From: Terriglobales bacterium
GTDB taxonomy: Bacteria; Acidobacteriota; Terriglobia; Bryobacterales; Bryobacteraceae
DNA length: 64,000 bases
Assembly: GCA_027485675.1 (NCBI GenBank)
Contig: JAIXQP010000033.1
Span: forward strand, 186,001 to 250,000
Direction of reading: 5' to 3'
The notes under the pieces: generated by a model
Databases searched by the model: none
Seen by the model: the letters and a program-made list of their open reading frames with translations, nothing else
Told to the model about the DNA's origin: nothing
Program-made: the position numbers and the translations under genes
Part shown: in pieces, positions 38,815 to 52,936 of the stretch
Layout of the letters: every line of letters starts with the position of its first letter
Numbering within the stretch: position 1 is the first letter of the stretch

Positions 38815-39222
38815 GTGATCGACATCGGCTTACTCTGCCTGCGGCTCGGCTTCGGATTCGGCATGGCGTGGCTGCACGGCGCGGAAAAAATCGCCGGAGC
38901 GTGGGCCTACCTCCGCCACGGCGCGGCGTGGGATCTCCTGCCCGAGGTTGCACTGATCGGCTTCCCTGTACCGGTGGTTTTTGCCCTGGCGGCGACGGCC
39001 GCGGAGTCCGGGGCGGCGATCCTCCTGGGATGCGGCCTGTTCACGCGCTGGTGCGCCGTGGCGCTGGCTTTCACGATGCTGATGGCGGTCCGATACCATA
39101 CTCTCGCCGGTGGTCTGGGCGAACCCGCGGCAGCTTATGGCCTCGTCTACCTCAGCCTCGCCTGCGCCGGGGGCGGCCGCTACGCCGGGGACCATTACCG
39201 GCGCCGGACCGCTAAGCGCTAA
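38815..39222 (+). CDS. DoxX family membrane protein
   Basis: A 135-residue protein with four hydrophobic helices of the DoxX type: LGFGFGMAWLHGAEKIAG at the N-terminus, then VPVVFALAATAAESGAAILL, an interior CAVALAFTMLMAVRYH and a C-terminal helix with GDHYRRR. DoxX proteins are small respiratory or redox-associated membrane proteins with unclear activity. GTG start. Its stop lies 2 nt before the first ABC-ATPase gene, so it is the first gene of the ten-gene run up to 49251. Confidence 0.85.
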   Translation: MIDIGLLCLRLGFGFGMAWLHGAEKIAGAWAYLRHGAAWDLLPEVALIGFPVPVVFALAATAAESGAAILLGCGLFTRWCAVALAFTMLMAVRYHTLAGGLGEPAAAYGLVYLSLACAGGGRYAGDHYRRRTAKR

Positions 39223-39224
39223 GC

Positions 39225-39899
39225 ATGGCCGCCCTGCTGCAGATCGCCAACCTGCGCGTCACCTACCCCGGCGCGGTATCCCCCCTTGCCGGCGTGGCGC
39301 TCGAAGTCGCCGCCGGCGAGGCCGTGGGCGTCTTCGGCCCCTCCGGCGCCGGAAAATCGACCCTCTTGCGGTCGATTCCCCGCCTGCTCCCGGCCGGGAC
39401 CCGGATCGAAGGAACCATCCGGTTCGATGGCATGGAGCTGCTCGATCAACCGGAGTCGGCGATGCGCCGGCTGCGCGGCCGCCGGGTCGCCTACATCCCG
39501 CAGGCTCCGGCCGAAGCGCTGAACCCCGTGCTGCCGGTGGAGACGCAGGTGGCCGAAGTGCTCCGCGTCCACTTCCCCATGGCCCGCACGGCGCTCCGCG
39601 CGGCCGTGATGGAACGCCTCGTTCGCTACTTTCCGGAGAATGCCGCCCGCATCGCCCGCGCCTACCCGCATGAGTTGAGCGGCGGAGAGCGGCAGCGCGT
39701 CGTTATCTGCCAGGTTCTCTGCGCCTCGCCCAGTCTGCTACTGGCCGACGAGCCGACTTCGGCGCTCGACTCGGTCGCCCAACTGGACTTTCTGCGGCTC
39801 CTGCGGCAGACGCAGGAGCAAACCGGTATGAGCCTGATCTTCGTCAGCCACGACCGCGCCGTTCTCCGTTTCGTCACCACCCGGCAGGTGTCGCTGTGA
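39225..39899 (+). CDS. ABC transporter ATPase, DppD/OppD-type (short)
   Basis: A 224-residue ATPase. Walker A GPSGAGKS at 38-45, Q-loop YIPQAP, signature LSGGERQR, Walker B LLLADEP and switch VSHD are all intact. It resembles OppD/DppD in gene order, and its SALDSVAQLDFL segment is typical of that family, but it lacks the roughly 100-residue C-terminal oligopeptide domain (usual length about 330). Its stop overlaps the second ATPase start by 4 nt. Together with the next four genes it makes a complete peptide/nickel-type importer. Confidence 0.9.
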   Translation: MAALLQIANLRVTYPGAVSPLAGVALEVAAGEAVGVFGPSGAGKSTLLRSIPRLLPAGTRIEGTIRFDGMELLDQPESAMRRLRGRRVAYIPQAPAEALNPVLPVETQVAEVLRVHFPMARTALRAAVMERLVRYFPENAARIARAYPHELSGGERQRVVICQVLCASPSLLLADEPTSALDSVAQLDFLRLLRQTQEQTGMSLIFVSHDRAVLRFVTTRQVSL

Positions 39900-40597
39900 C
39901 GATCGCGATGTCCGGCGCCGGCAAAGTGTACGCGGAGCGCGGGCGGGTCCGGGCCTTTGGGCCAGTTGATTTGACCCTGCAGGAAGGCGAATCGGTGGCG
40001 CTGGTTGGGCGGTCCGGCACGGGGAAGAGCACGCTCGCCCGATGCCTGGCCGGGTTGGAGCCGCTGACGGAAGGGCGGTTGGACGGGGGCGGCCGCGCGG
40101 TCCAGCTCGTCTTTCAGGACTCTCCGTTAGCGCTGCCGCGGCAGTGGACGGTGGCCGCGATCCTTGCCGAGCCCCTCGAACTCGCCGGGCAGCGGGAGAC
40201 GCCGAGGCAGTTGGCGGAACGCCTGGAACAGGTGGGCCTGCCCCCGGCGCTGCTTTCCCGCACGGCGGCCACCCTGAGCGGCGGTGAGCGGCAGCGGGTG
40301 GCGCTCGCCCGGACTTTGGCCGTACCGGAGTTGCGCCTGCTCTTGCTCGACGAGCCCTTTGCTGGCCTCGACCCCAGCGCCGCGGAGGGTCTGGCCGCCC
40401 TGCTGGCCGAGTGGCGCCGGCGGCGCGGGTTGGGTTTGCTGCTGATCACGCATGATTTGGCGGGCGCACGCCGCCTGGCGGATCGGGTGCTGGTGATGGC
40501 GGATGGGCGAATTGTCGAAACGAAGCCAATGGCGGAGTTCTTCGACTACGCGGCCCATCCGGCCAGCCGTGCGCTGCTGGAGGCGATGCTCCCATGA
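39896..40597 (+). CDS. ABC transporter ATPase, DppF/OppF-type (short)
   Basis: A 233-residue ATPase paired with the previous one. Walker A GRSGTGKS at 38-45, Q-loop VFQDSP, signature LSGGERQR, Walker B LLLLDEPFAGLDP and the switch ITHD are present. Like its partner it lacks the C-terminal oligopeptide-transporter extension. GTG start overlaps the upstream stop, and the stop overlaps the permease ATG. The KTKPMAEFFDYAAHPASRALLEAML-like end is typical of OppF/DppF. Confidence 0.9.
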   Translation: MTIAMSGAGKVYAERGRVRAFGPVDLTLQEGESVALVGRSGTGKSTLARCLAGLEPLTEGRLDGGGRAVQLVFQDSPLALPRQWTVAAILAEPLELAGQRETPRQLAERLEQVGLPPALLSRTAATLSGGERQRVALARTLAVPELRLLLLDEPFAGLDPSAAEGLAALLAEWRRRRGLGLLLITHDLAGARRLADRVLVMADGRIVETKPMAEFFDYAAHPASRALLEAMLP

Positions 40598-41502
40598 CCT
40601 TCCTGCTGCGGCGCCTGGGCGGGGCGCTTGTCCAATTGGTTGCCGTCTCGGCGCTGGCCTTCGCCTTGATGGAGCTGGCGCCGGGGGACTACCTCGAAGA
40701 CATGCGCGTGAACCCGCAGATTCCGGCCGCGACCGTCGCTCGCTGGCGCGCCGAGTTCGGGCTGGACCAGCCGGCCATCGTGCGCTATGGCCGCTGGGTT
40801 CGGTCGGTGGCGAGCGGCGAGTTCGGCGTGTCGATGGCCTATGGCATCCCGGTCTCGGAGCTGATCGCCGGACGCCTGGGCCGTACGGTGGCGCTGTCGT
40901 TGCTGGCGCTCGGCCTCACCTGGCTGCTGGCGCTGCCCTGCGGGGTCTGGTGCGCCGCCTACCGCGGCGGTTGGCTGGACCGGCTCCTCGGCGGCGGAGC
41001 CACGGTTGCCCTGGCGCTGCCGGAACTGTTGGTGGGGTTGCTGGTCCTGCAAGGCGCGTTGTGGGCCGGTTGGGGACCCGTCAGCGGGCGGATCGGGCCC
41101 GCCGTGGCGGTGCTGGCGGCCGTCTCCTTTCCCTCCGTCTTCCGGCATACGCGCAGCAGCGTCGGGCAGTCCCTGCGGCTGCCGTTCGTCGATCACTTGC
41201 GCGCCGCGGGCCTGAGCGAAACGCGGATCCTGTTCCGCCACGTTCTGCCCGCCAGTTTGAATCCGCTGGTAAGCCTGCTGAGTCTCTCGCTGGCCGGGAT
41301 CACCAGCGCGTCGCTGGTGGTGGAGGTCACGCTTAGTTGGCCGGGGATGGGCCAATTGCTGCTCGAGGCGATCCTGGCCCGCGACGTCGCGGTGGTCCTG
41401 GCCGCGGTGATGGTGGCGGCCACCCTGCTCCAGGTGGCGAACCTGATTGGCGATGGCTTGCTCTATCTGGCCGATCCCCGCATCCGGAGGCGCCCGGCGT
41501 GA
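40594..41502 (+). CDS. ABC transporter permease, DppB-type
   Basis: A 302-residue inner-membrane permease with about six helices. The N-terminal LLRRLGGALVQLVAVSALAF, the GLDQPAIVRYGRWV loop and the EAA-like coupling loop (HLRAAGLSETRILFRHVLPASLNPL) are all typical of DppB/OppB. The cytoplasmic loop after it has the ATP-binding contact region. ATG overlaps the ATPase stop (ATGA). It pairs with the next permease. Confidence 0.92.
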   Translation: MTFLLRRLGGALVQLVAVSALAFALMELAPGDYLEDMRVNPQIPAATVARWRAEFGLDQPAIVRYGRWVRSVASGEFGVSMAYGIPVSELIAGRLGRTVALSLLALGLTWLLALPCGVWCAAYRGGWLDRLLGGGATVALALPELLVGLLVLQGALWAGWGPVSGRIGPAVAVLAAVSFPSVFRHTRSSVGQSLRLPFVDHLRAAGLSETRILFRHVLPASLNPLVSLLSLSLAGITSASLVVEVTLSWPGMGQLLLEAILARDVAVVLAAVMVAATLLQVANLIGDGLLYLADPRIRRRPA

Positions 41503-42305
41503 AAGCCTGCCTTGTGTTCCTCCTGGCCATCCACCTGCTGGCCGCGATGGCCGGCTTCGTGACGGCCTATCCCCCGGCCGAGCAGCATCGTGAAAATGCC
41601 TGGGAAGCCCCCGGCGCCCGCTTCCCGCTGGGCACCGATGGGCTGGGGCGCGATCAGTGGTCGCGGCTGGTCCACGGGGCGCGGATCTCCCTCTGTTCCG
41701 GACTGGCGGCGGGCGTTCTCTCCGCCGGATTAGGCCTGTTGCTGGGCGGGGTGGCCGGCCTGGCGGGAGGTTGGGTAGACCGGATGGTCACACGCCTGAT
41801 GGAACTGTTTTTGGCCCTGCCCTGGATGTATCTTCTGTTAGCGGCGCGGGCGTTTTTCCCCTTGGAAACGGACGCCCGCGTGGTGTTCACGGCCCTGTTG
41901 CTCCTGCTCGGAGCCATCGGCTGGGCGCGGCCGGCGCGTCTCGTCCGGGGCATCGTGATGAGCGTCAAGGAGCGGGAGAGCGTGCTGGCGGCGCGAGGGT
42001 TCGGGGCGGGGCAGTGGTACCTGCTGCGGCGGCACATCGTGCCGGAGACGCTGCCGGCGCTGGCTACCTATTTGAGCCTGGCGATTCCGCAGTACGTCGC
42101 CGCCGAAGTGACGCTTTCGTTCCTGGGCCTGGGGTTCAGCGGGTCCACGCCGAGTTGGGGTTCGCTGGTGGGCAGCATGGGCAGTCTCGACGTGTTGACT
42201 GACGCCTGGTGGATGGGCCTGCCGGTGGTGGTGCTGGCTGTGGTGTTCGGATGTTATTCTATTGTTTCCAGCGCTTTAGCGGAAACACAACGCCAAGGAA
42301 GGTGA
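41499..42305 (+). CDS. ABC transporter permease, DppC-type
   Basis: A 268-residue permease. After a first helix, the DppC hallmark FPLGTDGLGRDQWSRLVHGARISL is present, then the coupling loop ESVLAARGFGAGQWYLLRRHIVPE and the C-terminal SFLGLGFSGSTPSWGSLV. The GTG at 41499 overlaps the DppB stop; earlier in-frame codons only overlap that gene. The protein is a little shorter at the N-terminus than many DppC proteins. Stop is 2 nt before the binding-protein gene. Confidence 0.92.
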   Translation: MKACLVFLLAIHLLAAMAGFVTAYPPAEQHRENAWEAPGARFPLGTDGLGRDQWSRLVHGARISLCSGLAAGVLSAGLGLLLGGVAGLAGGWVDRMVTRLMELFLALPWMYLLLAARAFFPLETDARVVFTALLLLLGAIGWARPARLVRGIVMSVKERESVLAARGFGAGQWYLLRRHIVPETLPALATYLSLAIPQYVAAEVTLSFLGLGFSGSTPSWGSLVGSMGSLDVLTDAWWMGLPVVVLAVVFGCYSIVSSALAETQRQGR

Positions 42306-42307
42306 GG

Positions 42308-43963
42308 ATGGAGATGCGATTGGCCAAGCTGTGGCGGGAACTGCTGCTGGCAACTCTCATTCTCGTGCCGGCGTGGTCGCAAAGCGGGGGGCGGGCGATC
42401 GTCGTGCAGCGCTCGGAACCGAGGGGATTCCAGCCCGTTTATTCGGTTGACGAACCCTCGCGCGCCGTCATCGGCCTGCTGCATGCGCCCTTGCTGCGGA
42501 TCCATTCCGAGACGCAGGAAACGGAGGCGGTGCTGGCGGCATCGTGGAAGGTGAGCCCGGACGGGCGCACCATCACGGTGAACCTGCGCGAAAACCTCCG
42601 CTTCTCCGACGGCGCTCCCCTGACCGTAGCCGATGTTCTGTTCACCTTCGCGGTGCATCAGGACGCTGCGGTCGCTTCGCCGTTGCGCGAGGTGTTGCAG
42701 GTGGGCGGGAAGCCGCTGGTGGTGACCGCGGCCGGGCCGCGCCGCGCGCAGTTTCAAATGGCGGAGCCCTACGCCGCCGGCGAACGGCTGCTGGCCGGCG
42801 TCGCCATTCTGCCGCGGCACCGGATGGAAGCCGCCTACCAACAGGGGCAGTTCCGGAGCCTGTGGGGGCTCGGCGCCAAGCCCAGCGAACTCGCCGGCGC
42901 CGGACCGTTCCGGCTGAAACTGGTCGAACCGGGCCGGCGGATGGTGCTCGAACGCAATCTGCATTACTGGAAGCGGGACAAAGCCGGCAAGCCGCTGCCG
43001 TATCTGGACGAAATGGAGTTTCTCTTCACCGCCGGAGAGGACGCCCAGGTGGCGCGCCTGCTGGCCGGGGAAGGCGACCTTGCCGCGAGCTTCGGCGGCG
43101 GCAGCTACCGCGCCATCGAGTCCCATCGCGAACGCCGCGGCATTCGGCTGCTCGATGCGGGGCCCAGCCTCGATTACACCTTTCTGCTGTTCAACCTCAA
43201 CCCCGGCGGCAAGCGCCCGTGGTTCGCGCAGACCGCGTTTCGCCAGGCGGTCTCCGCGGCCATGGATCGCGAATCCATCGCCCGCCTCGTCTACCGGGGC
43301 CGCGCCTCGCCCATCCGCGGACCCGTCACCCCGGCCCGCCTCAAGTGGTACGCCGGGCCGGCCGCCCCAGCCGCCGAACCCCGCAGGCTGCTCTCCGCCG
43401 CCGGGTACCGGTGGAATGGCGAAGGCCGTCTGCTGGATCCCACGGGCGCGCCGGTCTCCTTCACCTTACTGGTCAACGCGGCCAATCCCGCCTACACGCA
43501 AACGGGCGCGATCGTCGAAGAAGACTTGAAGAAAATCGGTATCGCCGTTCAAGTGGTGCCGATGGAGTTCCGCAGTCTTGTCGACCGTGTCGTCAACCGC
43601 AAGGATTATGACGCTGCTCTGATGGCTCTCCGCCCCGGCGATGTGGATCCGGCGGCCGACGTGAACGCCTGGGTCTCCGCCGGGCGGACGCGCCTGTGGA
43701 ACCTGAGCGGGCAGGCTCTCCATCCCTGGGAGGCCAGCGTGGATGAGAAGATGCGCGCTCTGATGGCGACCCGCGACCAGGCCCGGCGACGCCGGCTCTT
43801 CCATGAGGTTCAGCGCATCCTGGAGCAAGAGGCGCCCATGGTCTGCCTGGTTAGTCCGAATCTCCTGCTGGCTTCCCGGGCCGGACTAGAAAACGTTCGC
43901 CCGGGTACCATCGGCGATCTCGTACTCTGGAACGCGGATGAGTGGTATTGGCGGCGGCAGTGA
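42308..43963 (+). CDS. ABC transporter substrate-binding protein, SBP_bac_5 (peptide/nickel family)
   Basis: A 551-residue periplasmic binding protein with an N-terminal signal peptide (LLLATLILVPAWSQ) and no lipobox. Family landmarks are LLHAPLLRI near the start, VNLRENLRFSDGAPLTVADVLFTF, the GAGPFRLKLVEPG region, FRQAVSAAMDRESIARLVY, and the C-terminal QRILEQEAPMVCLV. A Shine-Dalgarno AAGGAAGG precedes the ATG at 42308. Ligand could be a peptide, glycan or metal chelate. Its stop overlaps the sigma-factor GTG. Confidence 0.92.
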   Translation: MEMRLAKLWRELLLATLILVPAWSQSGGRAIVVQRSEPRGFQPVYSVDEPSRAVIGLLHAPLLRIHSETQETEAVLAASWKVSPDGRTITVNLRENLRFSDGAPLTVADVLFTFAVHQDAAVASPLREVLQVGGKPLVVTAAGPRRAQFQMAEPYAAGERLLAGVAILPRHRMEAAYQQGQFRSLWGLGAKPSELAGAGPFRLKLVEPGRRMVLERNLHYWKRDKAGKPLPYLDEMEFLFTAGEDAQVARLLAGEGDLAASFGGGSYRAIESHRERRGIRLLDAGPSLDYTFLLFNLNPGGKRPWFAQTAFRQAVSAAMDRESIARLVYRGRASPIRGPVTPARLKWYAGPAAPAAEPRRLLSAAGYRWNGEGRLLDPTGAPVSFTLLVNAANPAYTQTGAIVEEDLKKIGIAVQVVPMEFRSLVDRVVNRKDYDAALMALRPGDVDPAADVNAWVSAGRTRLWNLSGQALHPWEASVDEKMRALMATRDQARRRRLFHEVQRILEQEAPMVCLVSPNLLLASRAGLENVRPGTIGDLVLWNADEWYWRRQ

Positions 43964-44529
43964 GCGCGAACACACCGGTTGCCCAATGGGATGATGCGGC
44001 GCTTGTCGAAGCCTGCTTGGCGGGTGATGAGCGGGCGTGGGATGCGCTCATCGAAAAATACAAGCGGCTGATTTATGGGGTGCTGATGCGGTACCGTATG
44101 CCGGAAGAGGATGCGGCGGACATCTTTCAAGCCGTGTGCGTGGATCTGTACACCGAGTTGGGGAAATTGCGGGAGGTCGGGGCGCTGCGCGGATGGCTGG
44201 CCCGGGTGGCGGCGAACAAATGCTTCCATTGGCGGCAACGGGGGATCAGCCGGCCGGAGGAGTGGCTCGACGAGCAGGCGCACGGGGCGCCTCCCGCCGG
44301 GGATCCGGCCTGGCTGCAAACCTTTGAACGGGAGCAGCTCGTTCAGCAAGGTATCGGGCGGCTGAGCGGCCGGTGCCAGAAACTCGTTCGGATGCTCTTT
44401 TTTGAGGATCCGCCGCGGCCTTATGACGAAGTGGCCCGGCAACTGGGAGTGGCCACCGGTTCGATCGGGTTCCTGCGGGGCCGCTGCCTCGAGAAGCTGG
44501 CCGCGGCGCTCGAGGAGGTGGGGCTGTGA
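43960..44529 (+). CDS. ECF-type RNA polymerase sigma factor
   Basis: A 189-residue extracytoplasmic-function sigma factor. Sigma2 region: CLAGDERAWDALIEKYKRLIYGV and then MPEEDAADIFQAVCVDLY and the RGWLARVAANKCFHWRQR promoter-melting/recognition part. Sigma4 helix-turn-helix: LVRMLFFEDPPRPYDEVARQLGV-like residues, then GSIGFLRGRCLEKL. The GTG at 43960 overlaps the binding-protein stop (GTGA), matching the local pattern; a GTG at 43942 is an alternative. No transmembrane anti-sigma is adjacent; the zinc-finger protein two genes on may serve. Confidence 0.93.
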   Translation: MSANTPVAQWDDAALVEACLAGDERAWDALIEKYKRLIYGVLMRYRMPEEDAADIFQAVCVDLYTELGKLREVGALRGWLARVAANKCFHWRQRGISRPEEWLDEQAHGAPPAGDPAWLQTFEREQLVQQGIGRLSGRCQKLVRMLFFEDPPRPYDEVARQLGVATGSIGFLRGRCLEKLAAALEEVGL

Positions 44530-47240
44530 CCGCCGCGGAGGTGATGGCGCTTTGTGAAGAGGCCCGGCAGGCGATGCGGACCGACCTGGTCCGTGCCGGT
44601 GAACTGGCCGAGACCGCTCTGGCCGCCGCTCGCAAGCTGGGAGACCGGGCGGCCCGCGCCGAAGCGCTGCGGATGAAGGGGCACGTAGCCTATTCCGTCG
44701 GGCAGTATCGCAAGGCCATGGCCGCCTACCGCCCGGCCGTCCGCCTGCTCGAACAGTTAGGGCAGACCGTCGATGCGGGCCGCACCCGGAGCAGCGCCCT
44801 GCAGAGCCTGATTTACCTGGGCCGCTACGAAGAAGCGCTGGCCTGGGCCGTCGAAGCCCGGCGCGTGTTCGCGGCATGCGGCGATGGGCTGCGCCTCGCC
44901 CGGCTCGATAGTAACGAAGCCAACATCCTCCACCGGCAGGACCGTCATGACGAGGCTCTCGCGCAGTATCAACGGGCCGCCGAGGGTCTGCGCCAATACG
45001 GCGATCTCGATTCGCTGGCCATCACGGTTCGGAACCTGGCCGTCTGCCATGCGGCGCGGTATGAGTTGAAAGAGGCGCTGGCCTGTTATGAAGAGGCCGC
45101 CCGTCTGTATCGGGAACGGAATCTGAAGCTGCTGGCCGCCGAAGTCGGCGACAATATCGCCCAATTGCATCACCTGCGGGGGGACTACATCGTCGCACTC
45201 GAAACCTACCGGGCTTCGAACGTGGACGGCCGCGCCAACACCTTTCATGCCGCCGTGGCGCGTCTCGACCAAAGCGAACTCCTCTGCGAACTGAATCTGT
45301 TCAGTGAAGCTGCCGACCTGGCCGAGGCGGCCATCGACCGCTTCCAGCGGCTTGGCGTCCACTACGAGCGGGGCAAAGCGCTTCTGACGCTGGCCGCCGC
45401 GGTGTTTCGTCTGGGGGAAAGCCATCGGGCGCTGCGCCTGTTGCGCGACGCCGAAAAACTGTTCCGGCGCGAGGCCAATCCGGGCTGGCTTGCCGTCGCC
45501 GGGCTCTACCGCGCCACGATGCTGCTGGACTTGGGCGATCCCGCCGGCGCCCGGCTGGCCGCCGAATCGGTGCTCGAACGCCTCGAAGGCGCTCAGCATA
45601 TGGCGGCGCTGCTGCTGTTGACGCGGATCGCCATCCGCGAAGAGCGTCTGGTGGAGGCCCGGGCCTATCTCGAGTGGGCGGAGACGGCGAGCCAAAAGGC
45701 CGCCACGCTGCCGGTACGATACCAGGTGGCGATGGTGGCTGCCGAGTTTCGGGAGGCCCGCGAAGAGCCCGCGGCGGCCTGGGCGCACTATCAGCGCGCC
45801 CATGAGATCCTCGAAGTGCTTCGGGGGCAGTTCGGAGGCGACGGCCTGCGCATCTCCTTCCTCGAAGACAAAAGCGGCTGCTATGAGGCGCTCGCCGGGA
45901 TGGCCCTGCGGGGGGCGGTGGACTGTCCGCTCGAGCAGGCCTTTCTGTATATTCAACAGGCCAAATCGCGCAGTCTCGCCGACGGCATGCTGCAGGAGGA
46001 TTCCGCGGAGGAGCCGGAGGAGACCCGGGCGCGGCGGGGCGCGTTGTCGTGGTGTTACCGCGAACTGGAACGCGCCGATACTCCCAGCCTCCGTGCGCGC
46101 ATCGAGGGATTGGAGCGCCAGTTAACCGCCGAGTGGGCGCTGCGCTATGGCTACGGCGGCCGGGCAGGCATCTCGGTCGCGCAGGTGCAGGCGTGCCTGG
46201 CGCCCGGCGAATCGCTGGTTGAGTATTTCGCCGCCAAGGGGTGGCTGTATGCCTTCGTGCTCACCCGAAACTCGCTGTGCGCCAAACGGGTAGCCCCGTG
46301 GGCGGACGTGGAACATACCTGTCATCTGCTTCGCTTCCAGATCTCGCGGGGCCTCTGGGCCGGGGAACATCCGGGCGGGCGGACGTGGCTCGCGGCCACC
46401 GAACATCATTTGCGGCAGTTGTACCGTCTGCTCGTCGAGCCGTTGGAAGCGGAGTTGACCGGTGGACATTGGACCTTCGCTCCGCATGGGGTCCTGCACC
46501 AGGTTCCCTTTCCCGCCCTGCTCTCCGCCGAAGGCCACTTGATCGAGCGGCGGACCATCAGCTATGCGCCCAGCGCGTTGGTCCATCAGTTGTGTCAGCA
46601 CCGGCCGCTCGGCGGCGGAGCGGGGGTGGCCCTCTTTAGCGTTCCCGACGCCCAGGCGCCGGAGATCGCCAGCGAAGCGCGGGAGTTGGCCGGGATTCTC
46701 GATCCGGCGGAAGTCTTCGCCGAAGAGGCGGCTTCCTTACAGAACTGGACGCAGGCGATGGGGCGCCGTCGGGTGGTCCACCTGGCGACCCACGGCCTCT
46801 TCCGGCAGGATAATCCGCTCTTCTCTTCGGTGCGCCTGCACGATGGACGGTTCTGCCTCTATGACCTCTCTTCGATGCGGGTGGAGGCCGATCTGGTGAC
46901 GCTGAGCGGCTGCGCCACCGGCATGTTGGAGACGACGGGAGCCGGCGAGGTGATGGGGCTCGCGCGGGGCCTGCTCACCGCCGGGGCCCGCGCGGCGCAT
47001 CTGTCCCTTTGGGACGTCAACGACGGCTCCACGGCCTGCTACATGGCCCATTTCTATCGTTCGCTCCGCGCCGGCTCTACCGTCGCCGCCGCCGGCCGCA
47101 CCGCCATGCTGGCCACCCGCGAGCGGTCGCCGCATCCTTACTACTGGTCTGCATTTTTTTTGACGGGCCAAGTAAGAAATTCCATCGGCCCTCTATTTTC
47201 TGGCGCTCCTGCAGACCCTAATGGGATAGCACTCCCGTGA
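44526..47240 (+). CDS. TPR-CHAT protein (caspase-like CHAT protease)
   Basis: A 904-residue cytoplasmic protein. Tetratricopeptide-type helical repeats cover about 1-470 (for example RAEALRMKGHVAYSVGQYRKAM and YDALAQYQRAAEGL-like units). The CHAT peptidase domain covers about 560-895, with the catalytic His756 in HLATHG and Cys796 in LSGCATG; NPLFSSVRL and GLARGLLTAGARAAHLSLWDV are further CHAT landmarks. CHAT proteases are related to caspases and separase. The GTG overlaps the sigma-factor stop and the stop overlaps the zinc-finger gene, so expression is coupled to both. Confidence 0.93.
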   Translation: MTAAEVMALCEEARQAMRTDLVRAGELAETALAAARKLGDRAARAEALRMKGHVAYSVGQYRKAMAAYRPAVRLLEQLGQTVDAGRTRSSALQSLIYLGRYEEALAWAVEARRVFAACGDGLRLARLDSNEANILHRQDRHDEALAQYQRAAEGLRQYGDLDSLAITVRNLAVCHAARYELKEALACYEEAARLYRERNLKLLAAEVGDNIAQLHHLRGDYIVALETYRASNVDGRANTFHAAVARLDQSELLCELNLFSEAADLAEAAIDRFQRLGVHYERGKALLTLAAAVFRLGESHRALRLLRDAEKLFRREANPGWLAVAGLYRATMLLDLGDPAGARLAAESVLERLEGAQHMAALLLLTRIAIREERLVEARAYLEWAETASQKAATLPVRYQVAMVAAEFREAREEPAAAWAHYQRAHEILEVLRGQFGGDGLRISFLEDKSGCYEALAGMALRGAVDCPLEQAFLYIQQAKSRSLADGMLQEDSAEEPEETRARRGALSWCYRELERADTPSLRARIEGLERQLTAEWALRYGYGGRAGISVAQVQACLAPGESLVEYFAAKGWLYAFVLTRNSLCAKRVAPWADVEHTCHLLRFQISRGLWAGEHPGGRTWLAATEHHLRQLYRLLVEPLEAELTGGHWTFAPHGVLHQVPFPALLSAEGHLIERRTISYAPSALVHQLCQHRPLGGGAGVALFSVPDAQAPEIASEARELAGILDPAEVFAEEAASLQNWTQAMGRRRVVHLATHGLFRQDNPLFSSVRLHDGRFCLYDLSSMRVEADLVTLSGCATGMLETTGAGEVMGLARGLLTAGARAAHLSLWDVNDGSTACYMAHFYRSLRAGSTVAAAGRTAMLATRERSPHPYYWSAFFLTGQVRNSIGPLFSGAPADPNGIALP

Positions 47241-47887
47241 AACACTACTCGCTAGCGGAATGGACAGACTTCGTTCGTGACTTAACGAACGAGTCGCAAC
47301 GCTCTGAAATGAAGCGTCATCTGGAATCTTCGTGCCCGGCCTGCTCCCGCGTGGTGACCCTGCTGGGCGCCGTGTGGGAGTGCCGTGCGCCGGTCGAGGT
47401 GCCGGATGATTTGACGGCGCGGGCGCGGTCCATCTTCCCCCGGCGGCGTCCGGCGCCGGCGGCGGAGTCCCTGGCCGAGCGCCTGGTGGCGGCCCTTAAG
47501 TTCGATAGCTTCGCCGCCGCCGCCCCCCAGGGCGCCCGGGCGGTTCCGGCCTCGGTACGGCGCCTGCGCTTCGGCACGGCCAGTGTCGACGTAGAACTCG
47601 TGGTGGATGCCCCGCGCGGGAGAGCGGTCAGCCTGACCGGCCTATCCTCCGCCAACGGCGGAGAGGTCCATCTTTTCGAGCGGCAAAAACTGGTGCAGAC
47701 CGTCGCCGCCAGTCCTTTCGGGGAGTTTCATCTCCAGTTCGACCAGCGCAAAGGAATGCGCCTGTTGATCACCGGCGCTCCGGGTAGCGCGTCGATCGAG
47801 GTGCCACTAGATTTTTTGCAACCCTTGAAACAGAAATCGCTAAAACTAAATCCTAAGGACTTACCTGGTTCATCGGAGGAACTATGA
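47237..47887 (+). CDS. zinc-finger (anti-sigma-like) protein with beta-rich C-terminus
   Basis: A 216-residue protein. The N-terminus has an H-x4-C-x2-C pattern (His28, Cys33, Cys36 in HLESSCPACSRV), resembling the zinc-binding region of anti-sigma factors, though typical spacing is H-x3-C-x2-C. No membrane helix is visible, so it would be a soluble regulator. A beta-rich domain follows at about 105-200. GTG start overlaps the CHAT stop. The likely partner is the ECF sigma factor two genes upstream; this is inferred from position and motif. Confidence 0.72.
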   Translation: MKHYSLAEWTDFVRDLTNESQRSEMKRHLESSCPACSRVVTLLGAVWECRAPVEVPDDLTARARSIFPRRRPAPAAESLAERLVAALKFDSFAAAAPQGARAVPASVRRLRFGTASVDVELVVDAPRGRAVSLTGLSSANGGEVHLFERQKLVQTVAASPFGEFHLQFDQRKGMRLLITGAPGSASIEVPLDFLQPLKQKSLKLNPKDLPGSSEEL

Positions 47888-49251
47888 AGTTGCTTCTATC
47901 CCTGTGCTTCCTGCTCTTGTTCGGCCCGCTTGCCCTGGCGGGCAACCAGCTCATCATCCGCGCCGAACCGACTTACCTGCGTGAGTTGGCGTCTCGTTTT
48001 CGCCTCACGATCCTCAAGCAGATCCCCGGCCACAATATCTTTCTGGTGGAGGGGCCGGCGGGGGTGCCGAGTGAGCAGCTCATCCGGCGTCTGAAAAACT
48101 GGGACCACGGAAAGGATCCTGCGGAAGACGATGAAGACGATGACGACGACGATGATGATGATGTCTCGGTCGAAGCGGACGTAACCGTGACCCTGGCGGA
48201 TACCCCGCCCGGCGCACCGGCCCTGAATACCGATCAGTCGCCGGTTTGGCAGGCCCTGCAGGACCGGCGGATGGTGGACTTTGGCGGGCGCCCGGCCTGG
48301 ACCGGTTTCGTCAATCAACCGGCTCTGCGGACGATTCGCGTGGCGGAGGCTCATCAGGAGCTGGGGACCGCTGCGGTGACCGTGGCCGTGATCGATACGG
48401 GAATCGACCCTGAACATCCTCTCCTGCAAGGTTTCGTGGTGGATGGCTACGATTTCGTGCGGGATCGTCCCGGTCCTCCCTCGGAGCTGAACGACCTCGA
48501 TGCGGAAACCCGTCAGATTTTCAATCCCTACACGACGGCGATTCTCGACACATTTGGCGAGGCCAATCCCTACACGACCGCAATTTTGGATCAAGTCACC
48601 GCCTCGCGCCTGGACCCCCGGCGCCTACCCCCGCAGTTCGGTCACGGCACGATGGTGGCCGGGGTCATCCGGCTGGTGGCGCCCGGCGCGAGAATCATGC
48701 CGCTGAAACCCTTTGGCGGCGATGGCCGGGCGAAACTGTTCAACCTGCTGGAGGCCGTCTATTACGCGGTTGACCGGCAAGTGAAGGTGATCAATATGAG
48801 TCTGAGCTTCGTGGCCTCTTCCCGCGAGTTGGAGTTGGCCATGCAGTATGCAGCCGTCAAGGGTTCCATCGTCGTGGCCTCGGTCGGCAACAGCGGCCGG
48901 GAGACCGTAACGTATCCGGCCGGCTACCCGGAGGTGATCGGTGTCGCCTCCATCAATGCCGCCGGCCGGCGCAGCGTCTTCTCCAACTTTGGCAGTAACG
49001 TCACGACCCTGGCGGCGCCCGGCGAGGCCGTGATCACGCTGTACCCCGGCGGCCGCTACGCCGCGGCGTGGGGAACTTCGTTCAGCGCTCCCATGGTCTC
49101 CGGCACGGTCGCTCTGATGGCGCGCCTCTACAGTCAGTTGAACTGGGAGACGGCCAAGGGTGGCTTGCAGGAGGCTGCCCCGCTCGAGAGTGGTTTGGGC
49201 AGCGGCCGCCTCGATGTGTTCCGGGCCGTCCGCAAAGCCCGGGAATTCTAG
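47884..49251 (+). CDS. secreted S8 family subtilisin-like protease
   Basis: A 455-residue exported protease. A signal peptide covers 1-19; an inhibitor-like propeptide follows (about 20-75) and then an Asp-rich run (about 79-97). The catalytic triad is intact: Asp171 in VIDTGID, His254 in FGHGTMVAG and Ser399 in GTSFSAPMVSG, with the oxyanion Asn in VASVGNSG. Between the Asp and His motifs NPYTTAILD occurs twice (214-222, 228-236). ATG overlaps the zinc-finger stop. It ends the ten-gene run from DoxX. Confidence 0.95.
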   Translation: MKLLLSLCFLLLFGPLALAGNQLIIRAEPTYLRELASRFRLTILKQIPGHNIFLVEGPAGVPSEQLIRRLKNWDHGKDPAEDDEDDDDDDDDDVSVEADVTVTLADTPPGAPALNTDQSPVWQALQDRRMVDFGGRPAWTGFVNQPALRTIRVAEAHQELGTAAVTVAVIDTGIDPEHPLLQGFVVDGYDFVRDRPGPPSELNDLDAETRQIFNPYTTAILDTFGEANPYTTAILDQVTASRLDPRRLPPQFGHGTMVAGVIRLVAPGARIMPLKPFGGDGRAKLFNLLEAVYYAVDRQVKVINMSLSFVASSRELELAMQYAAVKGSIVVASVGNSGRETVTYPAGYPEVIGVASINAAGRRSVFSNFGSNVTTLAAPGEAVITLYPGGRYAAAWGTSFSAPMVSGTVALMARLYSQLNWETAKGGLQEAAPLESGLGSGRLDVFRAVRKAREF

Positions 49252-49313: not shown

Positions 49314-49342
49314 TTGACACCGTGGTTCATCTCTTATAGAGT
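49314..49342 (+). promoter_or_regulatory. putative sigma-70 promoter of the first TonB-dependent receptor gene
   Basis: TTGACA (49314-49319), a 17-nt spacer and TAGAGT (49337-49342). A perfect -35 compensates for a modest -10. Transcription would start near 49350, leaving a leader of about 90 nt. Confidence 0.5.
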
Positions 49343-49365
49343 CCCCCGATATTGATGAGGGGGAC
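49341..49365 (+). repeat. perfect inverted repeat at the predicted transcription start
   Basis: GTCCCCC (49341-49347) and GGGGGAC (49359-49365) form a perfect 7-bp inverted repeat around an 11-nt loop. It overlaps the predicted -10 and start site, so it could be an operator or a 5' stabilising stem-loop. No U-run follows, which argues against a terminator. The rest of the 49252-49441 gap holds no gene. Confidence 0.5.
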
Positions 49366-49441
49366 TCGCCCTCGGGATCTTCCCAGTTCCCAGGGCGCCC
49401 TTTCGATACCAAGGCTGAACTACCTCGCAAGGGAGATCGAA

Positions 49442-52400
49442 ATGAATAAGAGAACCATTGCTGGATTTCTTCTATCGCTGTCCTTATCCGCTAGCGCGCT
49501 CTTTGCGCAGATCGGAACTTCCACCATCACCGGAACCGTCGTCGATCCCTCCGGCGCGGCGATCCCTAACGTTTCGGTGACCGTCGTGCAAACCGGCACG
49601 CAATTCACGACGACGACCACCACCAATACCGAAGGGATCTACCGGGTGCTGTCCCTGCAGCCTGGGTCTTATCGCATTACTTTCGAGGCGCAGGGGTTTA
49701 ACCGGGCCGTGCGGGACAATATCGAACTCCGCACGGGCGACACGCTGGCCGTCGACGTTCCCCTGCGCGTCGGCAGCGTCACCGAGACCGTCGAGGTCTC
49801 CGGCTCAACGCAACTGCTCGAAACGGAAACGTCCGCCACTGGTTCCGTGGTCAACGGCGGCGTGCTGTACGAATTGCCGCTCTATCAGCGCTTCGTCAAC
49901 TCCACGTTGAATATCGTCCCCGGCCTCACCACCGGCGGCTTTGCTTATGGCGGCGCCCTAGGGAACTACAATATCGCCGGTCAGCGCGCCACCACCACCG
50001 GCTTCTTTGAAGACGGCGTCAGCGGCAACGACCAACTCGGCGGCACGAACAACGTCAAGACTCTCCAAAACTCCATTGCCGAGGTCAAGGTCATCACCAC
50101 CGTACCGCCCGCCGAGTATGGCCACACGGCCGGCGGCGTCATCAGCGTCGTCAAACGCTCCGGCACGAACGAACTCCACGGCATGGGTTCGTTTTTCGGC
50201 CGTACCCGCCGCATGCAGCACCGGCTCTTCTTCGACCGCCTTCGCGATAGCCAAGCGCGCGCCGGGCGTCCCGATGGCTTTCCGGCCTTCTTTATGATGC
50301 CCGACGCCACCTTGTCGGGACCCGTCGTGATCCCGAAGGTTTACGATGGCCGCAACAAGACCTTCTTCTTCTTCGGCTATCAACGCCTCCACGAGAAGAA
50401 GGTGGCGCAGGTGCAGGCCACTACCCCGACGCTCGCCATGAAGCAGGGCGACTTCAATTTCCCCGGGGTCGCCAATCCCAACCAGATCTTCGACCCCGCC
50501 ACCACCCGCCTCGTCAATGGTCAATGGCAACGGGATCCCTTCCCGGGCAACCGCATCCCCCTCGCCCGCTTCGACCCGGTCGCGCGCAAGGTGCTCGAGT
50601 TCGATCCCTGGGTCTCCCCCAACCAGGCTGGGACCTTCAATGCCCTCGGCCCGAACGGGAACCTGATGGCCGACGAGTTCGCCCGCGTGTTTTTCAATGA
50701 CTACAACCTGCGGTTGGACCATCAGTTTAACTCCGCGTTTAAGATCTACGGCTCCTACACCTACAACGGCCAGTCCGGCTACCTGCGCCCCATCAACATC
50801 CGGGAGGACCGCGCCGAGTTCGACCACCAGCAGGGCAACTACGCCCCGTTTGCCAACGCCAACTATTCGCTCGGGAAGACGTGGATCGTCTCTCCTACCG
50901 TCGTCAACGATGCCCGCGTCGGCTACTACCGTCGCGAGAACAGAACCGAAGTGCCCAGCTTTGGCGGCAACTGGGCGCAGCAGTTGGGCATCCCCAACAT
51001 GGATGGCTCCGTCATGCCGGCCTTCGGCTCCGGTGGCCGCGATACGCCCGGCGCGCTCTACGGCATAACCGGCGCCACCCCGAGCCGTCTTCTTACCGAG
51101 ACAGTGTCGTTCCGCAACGACACAACCGTCATCCGCGGCCGGCACGCCCTCAAGTTCGGCTATGAGCTCCTCCGCTTCCGGCTGAACTCGGCCAACCTCG
51201 CCCGTCCCGCGATCCTCTCCTTCGATGGCGTCACCTCCGGCGTCCTGCCGACCGGCGCGCTGCAGCCCAACACGGGCAACTACTTCGCCGGCTTCCTCAC
51301 CGGCCAGGTCTCGAACGCCGAATTCTTCTCGGAGTTGACCAGTTGGCTGCCCCGCTCCTCCATCCACAGCTTCTACCTGCAGGATGACTGGAAGGTGACC
51401 TCCCGGTTGACCCTGAACGTCGGCCTCCGCTACTCGAACGAATCGCCCTTCAGCGCCAAGTACGGTGGCCTGTCGAACTTCAGCCCCACGGCTACTGACG
51501 ATGTCACCGGCCGGCCCGGCGGTCTCGTCTTCGGCTCCGGCCTCAGCCAGCGCGACAATAACAACTTCAACCCCCGCATCGGCGCGGCATGGCAGTTCCG
51601 CGACAAGTGGGTGCTCCGCGGCGGCTTCGGCATGTACACGATCGATACGAAGTTCCCCGGCGCGCGCATCCAGTTTGACGAATGGGTGGCCCAGACCAAC
51701 CAGCAGGCCGCGCCCGGCAATCCCTCGCCCGTTTGGGGCCTGAGCCGCGGTCCGGACCCGGTGCAGTTCAACGTGCGTTCGAATGGCACCTCGCCCTTCC
51801 GCGGCCAGAACTTCAGCGCCCGCAACGTCGCCTACTGGGATCCGAACCTCCGCAACGCCTATTCCATGAACTGGAACGGCACCGTGCAGCGGGAGCTTTC
51901 GCAGAACTATCTGCTTGAAGTCAGCTACCAGGGTTCGGCCGGCATCGGCCTGCTCGAAAACTGGAACATCAACACCTTCCCCATCGATTTCGCACGCGGC
52001 AATGTCGCGCTGCAGAATCAGGTGCTGGCCGCTTCGCAGAACTTCCGCCCGTTCCCGCACTTCGGCAACGTGATGATGCGCTCGAACTTCGGCCACTCCA
52101 CCTTCCACTCCGGAACGGCCAAGCTCGAACGCCGCTACGCCAACGGCATGTTCTTCAGCACGTTCTACACGTTCTCGAAGGCCATCAACAGCCAGGACAC
52201 CGACAACGCCGGCTCGGGCGTAGCGCCCATTCAGAACCGGGGCCTCGAGAAAGGCCGCGCCAGCTACGACCGCAACCACCGCTGGATCTCCACCATCAAC
52301 TGGGAGCTGCCCATGGGCAAGAACAAGAAGTTCTCCCCGTCCAACCGGACGCTGAACTGGCTCGTGAGCGGCTTCGAAGTCTCCTGGATCCAGACCTTCG

Positions 52401-52936
52401 AATCCGGCAATCCGCTGAACTTCACCTTCCAGAACTCGCCGTATAACTACTACCCCGGCTTCGCCGGCAACCGGCGCCCCGACGTCATCAGCACCCCGAC
52501 CATCCGGGATAACTGGCGCGACATCGGCGGCGACCGCTTCAACGTGCAGAATACGAATCCGGTCGTCGAGATGAGTCACTTCGCTCTACCCGGCGGCTGC
52601 CCGCAAACGCTGCCCGCCGCCGGCACCCCGGCGCGGACGGATCTCATCAACGCCTGCAGCTTCCTGGTCGGCAACGCTGGCCGGAACATCATGACGGGCC
52701 TCCCGCTCGTCTGGTCGCAGGTTTCGGCGCAGAAGAACTTCCAGATCCGCGAACGAGTCAAAGCGCAGCTGCGCTGGGACTTCCAGAACGCGCTCAAAAC
52801 CTATAACTTCAACCCGCCCACCACGGCCGTGGACTTCCAGAATCCGCGGACGTTTGGCAAGGTATCGTCCGATCCCCGGACGGCCTCGCTGGGCGGCCAG
52901 CCGCTGATGAACATCACCGTCATGCTGCAGTTCTGA
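49442..52936 (+). CDS. TonB-dependent receptor with carboxypeptidase-regulatory-like N-terminus
   Basis: Outer-membrane receptor of 1164 residues. Signal peptide 1-22 (ending LFAQ). A Cna-B/carboxypeptidase-regulatory-like beta domain covers about 24-108 (ITGTVVDPSGAAIPNVSVTV, then GIYRVLSLQPGSYRITFEAQGF). A plug domain follows at about 120-245 and a large beta-barrel to the C-terminus, which ends in an aromatic residue (VMLQF) as outer-membrane barrels do. The ATG at 49442 is preceded by AAGGGAG. Acidobacteria carry many such receptors for polymers or chelates; the substrate is unknown. No TonB box stands out. Confidence 0.9.
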   Translation: MNKRTIAGFLLSLSLSASALFAQIGTSTITGTVVDPSGAAIPNVSVTVVQTGTQFTTTTTTNTEGIYRVLSLQPGSYRITFEAQGFNRAVRDNIELRTGDTLAVDVPLRVGSVTETVEVSGSTQLLETETSATGSVVNGGVLYELPLYQRFVNSTLNIVPGLTTGGFAYGGALGNYNIAGQRATTTGFFEDGVSGNDQLGGTNNVKTLQNSIAEVKVITTVPPAEYGHTAGGVISVVKRSGTNELHGMGSFFGRTRRMQHRLFFDRLRDSQARAGRPDGFPAFFMMPDATLSGPVVIPKVYDGRNKTFFFFGYQRLHEKKVAQVQATTPTLAMKQGDFNFPGVANPNQIFDPATTRLVNGQWQRDPFPGNRIPLARFDPVARKVLEFDPWVSPNQAGTFNALGPNGNLMADEFARVFFNDYNLRLDHQFNSAFKIYGSYTYNGQSGYLRPINIREDRAEFDHQQGNYAPFANANYSLGKTWIVSPTVVNDARVGYYRRENRTEVPSFGGNWAQQLGIPNMDGSVMPAFGSGGRDTPGALYGITGATPSRLLTETVSFRNDTTVIRGRHALKFGYELLRFRLNSANLARPAILSFDGVTSGVLPTGALQPNTGNYFAGFLTGQVSNAEFFSELTSWLPRSSIHSFYLQDDWKVTSRLTLNVGLRYSNESPFSAKYGGLSNFSPTATDDVTGRPGGLVFGSGLSQRDNNNFNPRIGAAWQFRDKWVLRGGFGMYTIDTKFPGARIQFDEWVAQTNQQAAPGNPSPVWGLSRGPDPVQFNVRSNGTSPFRGQNFSARNVAYWDPNLRNAYSMNWNGTVQRELSQNYLLEVSYQGSAGIGLLENWNINTFPIDFARGNVALQNQVLAASQNFRPFPHFGNVMMRSNFGHSTFHSGTAKLERRYANGMFFSTFYTFSKAINSQDTDNAGSGVAPIQNRGLEKGRASYDRNHRWISTINWELPMGKNKKFSPSNRTLNWLVSGFEVSWIQTFESGNPLNFTFQNSPYNYYPGFAGNRRPDVISTPTIRDNWRDIGGDRFNVQNTNPVVEMSHFALPGGCPQTLPAAGTPARTDLINACSFLVGNAGRNIMTGLPLVWSQVSAQKNFQIRERVKAQLRWDFQNALKTYNFNPPTTAVDFQNPRTFGKVSSDPRTASLGGQPLMNITVMLQF

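Follow-up and report, generated by a model that had tools for sequence, protein, structure and literature searches.

An octapeptide-bearing subtilase, a TPR-CHAT protease and a peptide importer in one acidobacterial gene run: a proposed peptide-signalling cassette

Several groups of described systems come close to the locus treated here, a ten-gene run at positions 38815..49251 of the window (the whole 64,000 nt stretch analysed; JAIXQP010000033.1:186,001-250,000, forward strand, of Terriglobales bacterium assembly GCA_027485675.1). In the first, ECF54, an extracytoplasmic function (ECF) sigma factor has conserved carboxypeptidase-, subtilase- and CHAT-domain neighbours; the excerpted text of PMC8999054 proposes proteolytic control and describes the group without an anti-sigma factor. 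The second is peptide signalling through tetratricopeptide repeat (TPR) proteins, described in Bacillota (PMC11343458, in excerpt). For the Rap and Phr proteins, the excerpt of PMC3601965 reports that Asn225 of RapJ, conserved in the Rap proteins of B. subtilis, holds the backbone of PhrC and that specificity residues covary, and precursors that hold several pheromones are known in Phr (PMC3601965, PMC11343458, in excerpt). In the third, Craspase, the TPR-CHAT protein Csx29 lies beside an ECF factor and its inhibitor; according to the excerpted PMC10028731, Craspase is activated by target RNA through Cas7-11, and cutting of the inhibitor (Csx30) relieves CASP-sigma.

The locus resembles ECF54 in its neighbourhood, having CHAT and subtilase neighbours and a weak carboxypeptidase-regulatory match (two of the 12 zinc-finger homologues, best 0.0057); it is unlike ECF54, as far as the excerpt of PMC8999054 goes, in its anti-sigma-like zinc-finger protein, its peptide importer, its octapeptide and the putative receptor role of the TPRs. 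With the RRNPP and Rap-Phr systems (PMC3601965, PMC11343458, in excerpt) it would share, on the model proposed below, an exported precursor, an extracellular protease, import, and a cytoplasmic TPR receptor with conserved Asn and covarying specificity residues. It departs from them in that the proposed precursor is a subtilase, the putative receptor has a caspase-like domain, the output would go through an ECF factor and the phylum is another. RRNPP receptors carry a helix-turn-helix or Rap-type effector part; here a CHAT domain takes its place. As in Craspase, a TPR-CHAT protease stands beside an ECF factor and its putative inhibitor; no Pfam or NCBIfam match to Cas7-11 was obtained among the ten proteins and no Csx30 relative was recognised, no search for a CRISPR array having been made. 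The importer has the full complement of OppABCDF, DppABCDF and NikABCDE in one operon, namely a family-5 binding protein, two BPD permeases and two ATPases; unlike theirs, its binding protein falls in a group that goes with a signalling cassette. By analogy, the system may work like Rap-Phr signalling joined to a Craspase-like release of a sigma factor, as a member of neither. The octapeptide, the importer link and recognition by the TPRs were not found in print in searches of an open-access library. The apparent parallel evolution of the subtilase octapeptides and the TPR groove points to a peptide-signalling system.

Octapeptide repeats in the subtilase

Alignment of the subtilases revealed an insertion between the catalytic Asp and His which is made of repeats with a period of eight residues. 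A repeated 8-mer was present in 60 of the 62 proteins (61 named loci and the window); L133 had none and L100 is cut by the contig end. Three low-complexity automatic picks (L058, L065, L086) were replaced by hand. Examples are QSTVAILD, QETTPILD, QSTTSILD, QSVTPILE and QSTVGVVD, and the window carries PYTTAILD twice, a repeat which the initial annotation had overlooked. The commonest residues are Q-S-T-x-x-x-L-D/E. A unit was counted if at least five of its eight residues matched the commonest one of its protein, so that weaker units are left out, and 217 of the 232 units were identical to that commonest octapeptide. Octapeptides of different loci were identical in only 54 of 1762 pairs and typically differed in three residues, for the most part those at positions 4, 5 and 6. 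The DNA of the copies was always distinct (low-complexity picks aside), with a mean of 3.9 of the eight codons differing. Since the residues are identical while every copy has its own DNA sequence, the identity within a protein looks to be kept by selection and not to stem from recent duplication.

In all 104 core subtilases that could be placed (the core family is defined below) the Asp-His loop holds a copy; 29 have an extra copy before the catalytic Asp, and the 104 together carry 41 distinct peptides. Where a cassette has several subtilases, they share one octapeptide (10/10). Outside the subtilases the peptide was absent: a search of the tested loci in six frames for matches of at least six of the eight residues gave 219 inside subtilases and 0 elsewhere. 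PYTTAILD occurs twice in its own genome, both times at this locus, and the QSTVAILD pattern gave eight matches in 101 genomes, six in subtilases of genomes G006 and G057 and two that read QTTVAIFD through codon degeneracy. As a control, six of the nine S8 loci of the window's genome were extracted; the window's subtilase alone had a repeated 8-mer, the five others having none. Among distant cassettes with a subtilase, a qualifying octapeptide under the same rule was present in 5/15 (4/6 and 1/9); in the examples read, the repeats follow the prodomain, with two copies each of QRSQAFID and QISHAFLD.

Hidden octapeptide sites in other cassette proteins were considered and rejected. In the zinc-finger protein, ECF factor, binding protein and permeases, the locus's own peptide fitted no better than foreign ones, and in the CHAT protein it fitted better in 28/53, which is near even. 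HD-GYP-like proteins (own better in 7/9) and ATPase 2 (17/22) lean to the own peptide, but have no match of six residues or more.

Two loci, L061 and L050, have two cassettes each on one contig. Those of L061 differ in octapeptide, QSTVSLLN versus QSTVAFLD, as expected for separate channels. The subtilase of the window has an acidic Asp/Glu run ahead of its catalytic domain (48124-48162), as do those of L058 and L065. S8 proteins near the ordinary Dpp operons of L055 and L056 match the cassette subtilase weakly (26-28% identity).

Covariation of the octapeptide with the TPR-CHAT protein

Octapeptide distances between loci were compared with those of the individual cassette proteins, conditioned on the mean over all proteins, and judged against octapeptides simulated on the tree. 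In the discovery set (42 loci) the N-terminal TPR part gave r 0.362, reached in 0/1000 simulations; the zinc-finger protein gave a weaker signal (8/1000), and the ECF factor, binding protein, catalytic part of the subtilase, middle TPRs and CHAT domain gave none at block level. Because the block limits came from a window scan, a second set of cassettes was tested with the block fixed. For this, 60 more regions were fetched, and the second set of 47 cassettes comprises 33 from these and further fetched regions, six from an earlier fetch and eight from named loci outside the discovery test (L061 twice, L073, L085, L097, L101, L105 and L129). L061, L105 and L131 had been dropped by hand from the discovery set, and 19 of 108 complete cassettes were dropped as having a CHAT protein at least 90% alike to another, which leaves 89 in total. 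Over all 89, the TPR block gave r 0.287 (0/500).

Single columns were examined for octapeptide sites 2, 3, 4, 5, 6 and 8. The best columns of the CHAT protein were 241 for site 2, 169/166 for site 4, 129 for site 6 and 86 for site 8, each above the top of 200 tree-simulated maxima. With the two sets taken apart, columns 241, 166/169 and 129 ranked 1-2 of about 950 in both, and column 86 ranked 1 in the first by mutual information (MI). The residue pairings make chemical sense. Phe at site 6 goes with Gly129 (7/7) and Val with Ile/Leu129 (27/27); Val at site 4 goes with Ala/Gly/Ser166 (33/33) and Ala/Gly with Val/Ile166 (38/39); Glu at site 2 goes with Arg241 (2/2); and Glu at site 8 goes with Ile/Leu/Val86 (7/7), Asp with Arg86 (75/78). 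Independent contrasts of side-chain volume gave r -0.82 both for site 4 with 166 and for site 6 with 129, and each of these ranked first among 882 columns. The values in the separate sets were -0.69 and -0.90 for 166 and -0.83 and -0.80 for 129, and a tree that omitted residues 1-277 gave -0.83 for both columns. Linked control proteins stayed at or below 0.45, versus 0.78 and 0.64 for TPR-CHAT.

Where these residues lie was read from an alignment to the consensus TPR and from the repeat phase. Positions 2, 5, 9, 12 and 13 of a TPR face the ligand groove. Residues 86 and 126 fall at position 2 of helix A, 129 at position 5, and 166 and 169 at the corresponding positions (2 and 5) one repeat further on; column 241 is two residues ahead of position 1 of its helix. 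Asn130, Asn170 and Asn210, at position 6 of helix A, are conserved. The octapeptide order 8-6-4-2 parallels the repeat order 86-129-166-241, as would be expected of an extended peptide lying in the groove. The arrangement is reminiscent of the Hop carboxylate clamp. RapF (1.8e-9) and RapJ (1.6e-7) are also matched by the TPR profile, which is a match of repeat family and not proof of common descent.

Covariation with the TPR groove, compensation in size and the repetition in the second set together argue that TPR-CHAT is very probably the octapeptide receptor, and its recognition of the octapeptide is the best-supported step of the model, one which we hold with considerable confidence.

The gene run and its relatives

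The initial annotation had described ten genes joined by nine tight junctions, and the sequence bears this out: DoxX and ATPase 1 are separated by a 2-nt gap, and the eight remaining junctions are 4-nt overlaps, GTGA or ATGA, beginning at 39896, 40594, 41499, 42302, 43960, 44526, 47237 and 47884. Two starts are ambiguous, that of the binding protein (GTG 42302 or ATG 42308) and that of the ECF factor (GTG 43960 or GTG 43942). The family names given earlier agree with Pfam and NCBIfam (DoxX, ABC_tran twice, BPD_transp_1 twice, SBP_bac_5, Sigma70_r2, TPR, CHAT and Peptidase_S8), the zinc-finger protein of the window being without a match at E 0.001 or 0.05 (Table 1). The importer's substrate is not named here, since the matches to the NCBIfam Opp, Dpp and Nik models fall below their cut-offs. 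Both a TPR array and a CHAT domain with a His/Cys dyad are present, as in TPR-CHAT proteases; H756 and C796, kept in at least 96% of the 89 cassettes, and D171, H254 and S399 of the subtilase are presumed to be catalytic, as in their families.

Table 1. Features of the coupled run (positions in the window)
Feature	Position	Strand	Basis or remark
DoxX family protein, first gene of the run	38815..39222	+	PF07681 1.5e-10
ABC (ATP-binding cassette) ATPase 1, OppD/NikD-like	39225..39899	+	PF00005 1.7e-26; NCBIfam YejF, CntF, CntD and NikD best, all under cut-off
ABC ATPase 2, OppF/NikE-like	39896..40597	+	PF00005 5.4e-23; NikE under cut-off
DppB/OppB-type permease	40594..41502	+	PF00528 4.3e-31, PF19300 5.3e-9
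DppC/OppC-type permease	41499..42305	+	PF00528 6e-21
Family-5 peptide-type binding protein (SBP_bac_5), cassette-linked group	42308..43963	+	PF00496 3.6e-69
ECF sigma factor	43960..44529	+	PF04542 6e-11, TIGR02937 4.8e-20; core family of profile A1
TPR-CHAT protease, His756 and Cys796	44526..47240	+	PF12770 4.7e-51, TPR_12 1.5e-17
N-terminal TPR block (residues 1-277), putative receptor of the octapeptide	44526..45356	+	Covariation; TPR phase
Covarying TPR residue R86	44781-44783	+	
Covarying TPR residue S129	44910-44912	+	
Covarying TPR residue I166	45021-45023	+	
Covarying TPR residue R169	45030-45032	+	
Covarying TPR residue H241	45246-45248	+	
Zinc-finger protein, anti-sigma-like, H28-x4-C33-x2-C36; C-terminal part carboxypeptidase-regulatory-like	47237..47887	+	Homologue matches
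S8 subtilase, octapeptide carrier, triad D171/H254/S399	47884..49251	+	PF00082 3.1e-41; subtilase alignments; signal-peptide-like N-terminus by eye
Octapeptide PYTTAILD, copy 1	48526..48549	+	
Octapeptide PYTTAILD, copy 2	48568..48591	+	4 of 8 codons and 0 residues unlike copy 1

The binding protein was sought in 101 genomes, the window's own included; 48 had a match and 30 loci were fetched (29 and the own one). The 29 loci form two classes. Of the 14 most alike (at least 37% identity), 13 are followed directly by ECF and TPR-CHAT genes, and L018 also has the cassette within its locus. The remaining 15 resemble ordinary Dpp-type operons, and about 1.5 kb on either side of them holds neither an ECF nor a CHAT gene. 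The initial annotation had named two observations that would speak against coupling. Importer genes usually apart from the CHAT cassette are not what the nearest relatives show, all 14 of the most alike loci being linked, and neither a promoter nor a terminator turned up between 43900 and 44000 in a simple scan, which is weak evidence. The DoxX gene, which had been counted with the system, is present in the window and in one sibling (L037) only among the 15 linked loci annotated, and probably does not belong to the conserved system.

Over these 101 genomes the ECF profile A1 separated a family of 26 matches (at least 184 bits) from the next ECF factors among the matches listed (at most 93.4 bits). 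The profile was made mostly from importer-linked loci and is therefore biased towards such loci. It was applied to the named genomes (the best 80 of 424 relatives), to 396 genomes of the phylum (44 match, E 1e-40) and to 399 of the class (83 match, E 1e-65), and 198 ECF loci were annotated, 175 once identical ECF ends had been removed. The core family (ECF at least 220 bits) has 146 members, 127 with upstream and 97 with downstream reach. Downstream, CHAT was present in 91/97, the zinc-finger protein in 87/97, the subtilase in 84/97 and a subtilase with repeated octapeptide in 77/97.

The gene order recurs in related genomes and so is more than chance. The larger regions read ATPase-ATPase-permease-permease-binding protein-ECF-CHAT-zinc finger-subtilase, some with gaps or rearrangements, and the binding protein is directly upstream of the core ECF gene in 101/127 loci, and anywhere in the locus in 106/127, as against an adjacent one in 3/26 outside the core. 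Four genomes with a core cassette and no adjacent binding protein were examined. A strong copy is encoded elsewhere in three (G422, G545 and G755; 795-904 bits, about 15 kb off in G422), and in the fourth (G093, 88% complete) no strong copy was found in the genome, the best match being 161 bits. In G171 and G081 the copy is inside the cassette locus. From this adjacency and these copies elsewhere, one branch of a wider ECF/CHAT/subtilase family has conserved its coupling to the importer. Close relatives of the locus come from records assigned to Acidobacteriota; the nearest, with an ECF factor 83% identical, is assigned to Candidatus Sulfopaludibacter. The initial annotation knew of no described system coupling all these genes. 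That stands for the importer link, which was not found in print; the co-occurrence of ECF, CHAT and subtilase genes is already in print as the ECF54 context in the excerpt of PMC8999054.

A PADLOC search for a defence system gave family-level matches only (TPR, BovA; subtilase 2.1e-13, IetS 5.6e-9) and none for the ECF factor, zinc-finger protein or binding protein, and a defence system was rejected.

Several neighbouring or stray arrangements were also seen. The window's genome has another ECF factor of this family (L147, G000:C49:13370-13933), which is followed by a zinc-finger match. The 20 kb fetched contain neither a CHAT nor a subtilase match, so this is possibly a sigma/anti-sigma pair without a receptor. 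In L053 (8620-15918; G095:C1) an 1827-residue protein with, by eye, a Ser/Thr-kinase-like start adjoins a protein related to the binding protein of the cassette, and no permease match was found in the locus. Cassettes of L091 and L104 are on contigs filed under Anaerolineae and Steroidobacteraceae, through transfer or as misbinned metagenome contigs. An HD-GYP-like gene (motifs by eye) follows the cassette in L039, L048, L050 and L051 and was matched in 37/97 core cassettes with downstream reach; it suggests a cyclic-di-GMP part of the output. In the window the coupled run stops before a long open reading frame (49352-52936), by eye TonB-dependent-receptor-like with a carboxypeptidase-regulatory-like start, just ahead of which lies a sigma-70-like promoter match of 10/12 (49314-49342).

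Proposed mechanism and alternatives

We think it likely, on the whole, that the locus is a self-contained peptide-signalling cassette in the full form set out here. Conserved gene order, repeat identity despite codon divergence and octapeptide-TPR covariation were computed; release, import, protease switching, the anti-sigma role and the direction of output are steps that we infer. The S8 subtilase would be exported, carrying identical locus-specific octapeptides in its Asp-His loop, to which some loci add copies behind the prodomain. The octapeptide would be freed by the subtilase itself or by another protease, with the cut most likely after Asp/Glu, and imported by the Opp-type ABC system with its family-5 binding protein. 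In the cytoplasm it may lie in the concave groove of the N-terminal TPRs, its C-terminal Asp/Glu pointing to the repeats nearest the N-terminus, with position 8 at R86, 6 at R126/S129, 4 at I166/R169 and 2 near H241, its backbone held by Asn130, 170 and 210. Binding is proposed to switch the caspase-like CHAT domain, which would cut or let go of the zinc-finger protein and so free the ECF factor; this would drive a response, in some loci with the HD-GYP-like protein. Release and import of the octapeptide are rated likely, in view of the export signal on the subtilase (by eye), the linked group of binding proteins and the importer.

The working model of the initial annotation, in which peptides from extracellular proteolysis are imported and sensed by the CHAT and sigma factor module, fits in outline. 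General digestion products are not the likely signal, and the model needs correction: the likely signal is a dedicated octapeptide inside the subtilase and the likely sensor the N-terminal TPR groove of the CHAT protein.

That the CHAT protein acts on the zinc-finger protein, and that the latter is the anti-sigma factor, is a reading to which we lean slightly. It draws on the zinc motif, the place beside the ECF and CHAT genes, zf-HC2 matches in homologues and the parallel with Csx29, Csx30 and CASP-sigma. H28, C33 and C36 are invariant in 12 aligned proteins, with H-x4-C-x2-C in 10/12, the window included, and H-x3 in 2/12; the motif of ZAS anti-sigma factors is H-x3-C-x2-C. The zf-HC2 matches are in 3/12 homologues (best 4.6e-6, with E up to 0.05 allowed).

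Several results weigh against the signalling model or parts of it. The TPR block limits were picked after the window scan, in which single windows also stood out in the binding protein (r 0.31) and in the subtilase, there immediately after the catalytic His (r 0.30, 1/200 permutations); neither protein as a whole gave a signal, and covariation with the subtilase's own catalytic part was dropped as a candidate. With the block fixed, the second set gave r 0.175, reached in as many as 42/1000 simulations, and the covariation of the zinc-finger protein disappeared there (563/1000) and was rejected. The pairing of site 8 with R86 fell in that set to rank 36 of 955 (MI) and 45 of 882 (contrasts). 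Site 2 has no size relation to column 241 (contrast r -0.11, rank 220 of 882), and neither the variable site 5 (best column I428, reached by 5/200 null maxima) nor site 3 (44/200) found a groove partner. The simulated null is lenient, since top columns of the binding protein, zinc-finger protein, subtilase and ECF factor pass it (at most 5/100) in 13/16 tests, and the groove geometry depends on an alignment. No adjacent binding protein is present in 26/127 core loci, and outside the core, besides the low adjacency given above, one is found anywhere in the locus in 8/26. A qualifying repeat is missing from 7/84 core cassettes with a subtilase. No octapeptide-like site marking the zinc-finger protein as a CHAT substrate was found in the loci tested, and no shared promoter was found upstream of the operons (93 sequences; best dyads in 9 loci, versus 7 in shuffles).

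Covariation shows that the octapeptide is recognised, not where, and the foremost alternative makes use of this. In a check on secretion or folding without import, TPR-CHAT would read the octapeptide on the cytoplasmic subtilase precursor, unsecreted enzyme would trigger the sigma factor and the importer would be nutritional. The 104/104 located core subtilases with copies in a loop of the folded domain, the 11/47 second-set cassettes that carry repeats without a binding protein directly upstream and the failure of the binding protein as a whole to covary with the peptide all favour it. We nonetheless consider it unlikely: a binding-protein group tied to the cassette, and encoded elsewhere in 3/4 non-adjacent genomes, would be needless for a nutritional importer, and a released peptide would better account for the multiple identical copies and their conserved final Asp/Glu.

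It is improbable that the octapeptide is instead a cleavage site, at which CHAT or the subtilase cuts the subtilase, with the TPRs as an exosite and control of subtilase activity in place of a signal. By eye there is an export signal on the subtilase and none on CHAT, so the two should not meet outside, and the CHAT domain and the subtilase catalytic part lack block-level covariation, the strongest partner residues being in the TPR groove. This must be set against the copies which 29/104 subtilases carry before the catalytic domain, the usual region of self-processing, against the covarying window behind the catalytic His, and against units that end in Asp/Glu, ends that a caspase-like enzyme could cut.

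A purely structural repeat, in which a beta-rich insert is kept alike by packing and the TPR covariation reflects the shared history of linked genes, is very improbable. The units are hydrophobic, gene linkage makes histories agree and the lenient null would help; yet copies about 100 residues apart stay identical while their codons diverge, other linked proteins used as controls score lower, and in both sets groove positions come first in the contrasts. Least credible of all is that an importer of nutrient peptides and an ECF/CHAT stress module, each of a known kind (the cassette ECF54-type) and mostly apart outside the core, were simply fused into one operon. Synteny already disfavours this through adjacency in 101/127 core loci, its spread over several acidobacterial groups, as judged from record titles, and the linked binding-protein group.

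The signalling model may, by a small balance of probability, represent a new class of bacterial peptide communication, in which a secreted subtilase carries its own multi-copy pheromone that is re-imported and read by a peptide-gated caspase-like protease releasing an ECF factor, with dozens of pherotypes and a TPR-groove specificity code readable from sequence. If true, TPR peptide signalling would extend from Bacillota to a phylum common in soil, with a protease as precursor, a peptide-gated caspase-like receptor and an ECF output. TPR-CHAT proteins outside CRISPR would gain a testable function, and the ligand-receptor specificity code would predict mutants that exchange partners.

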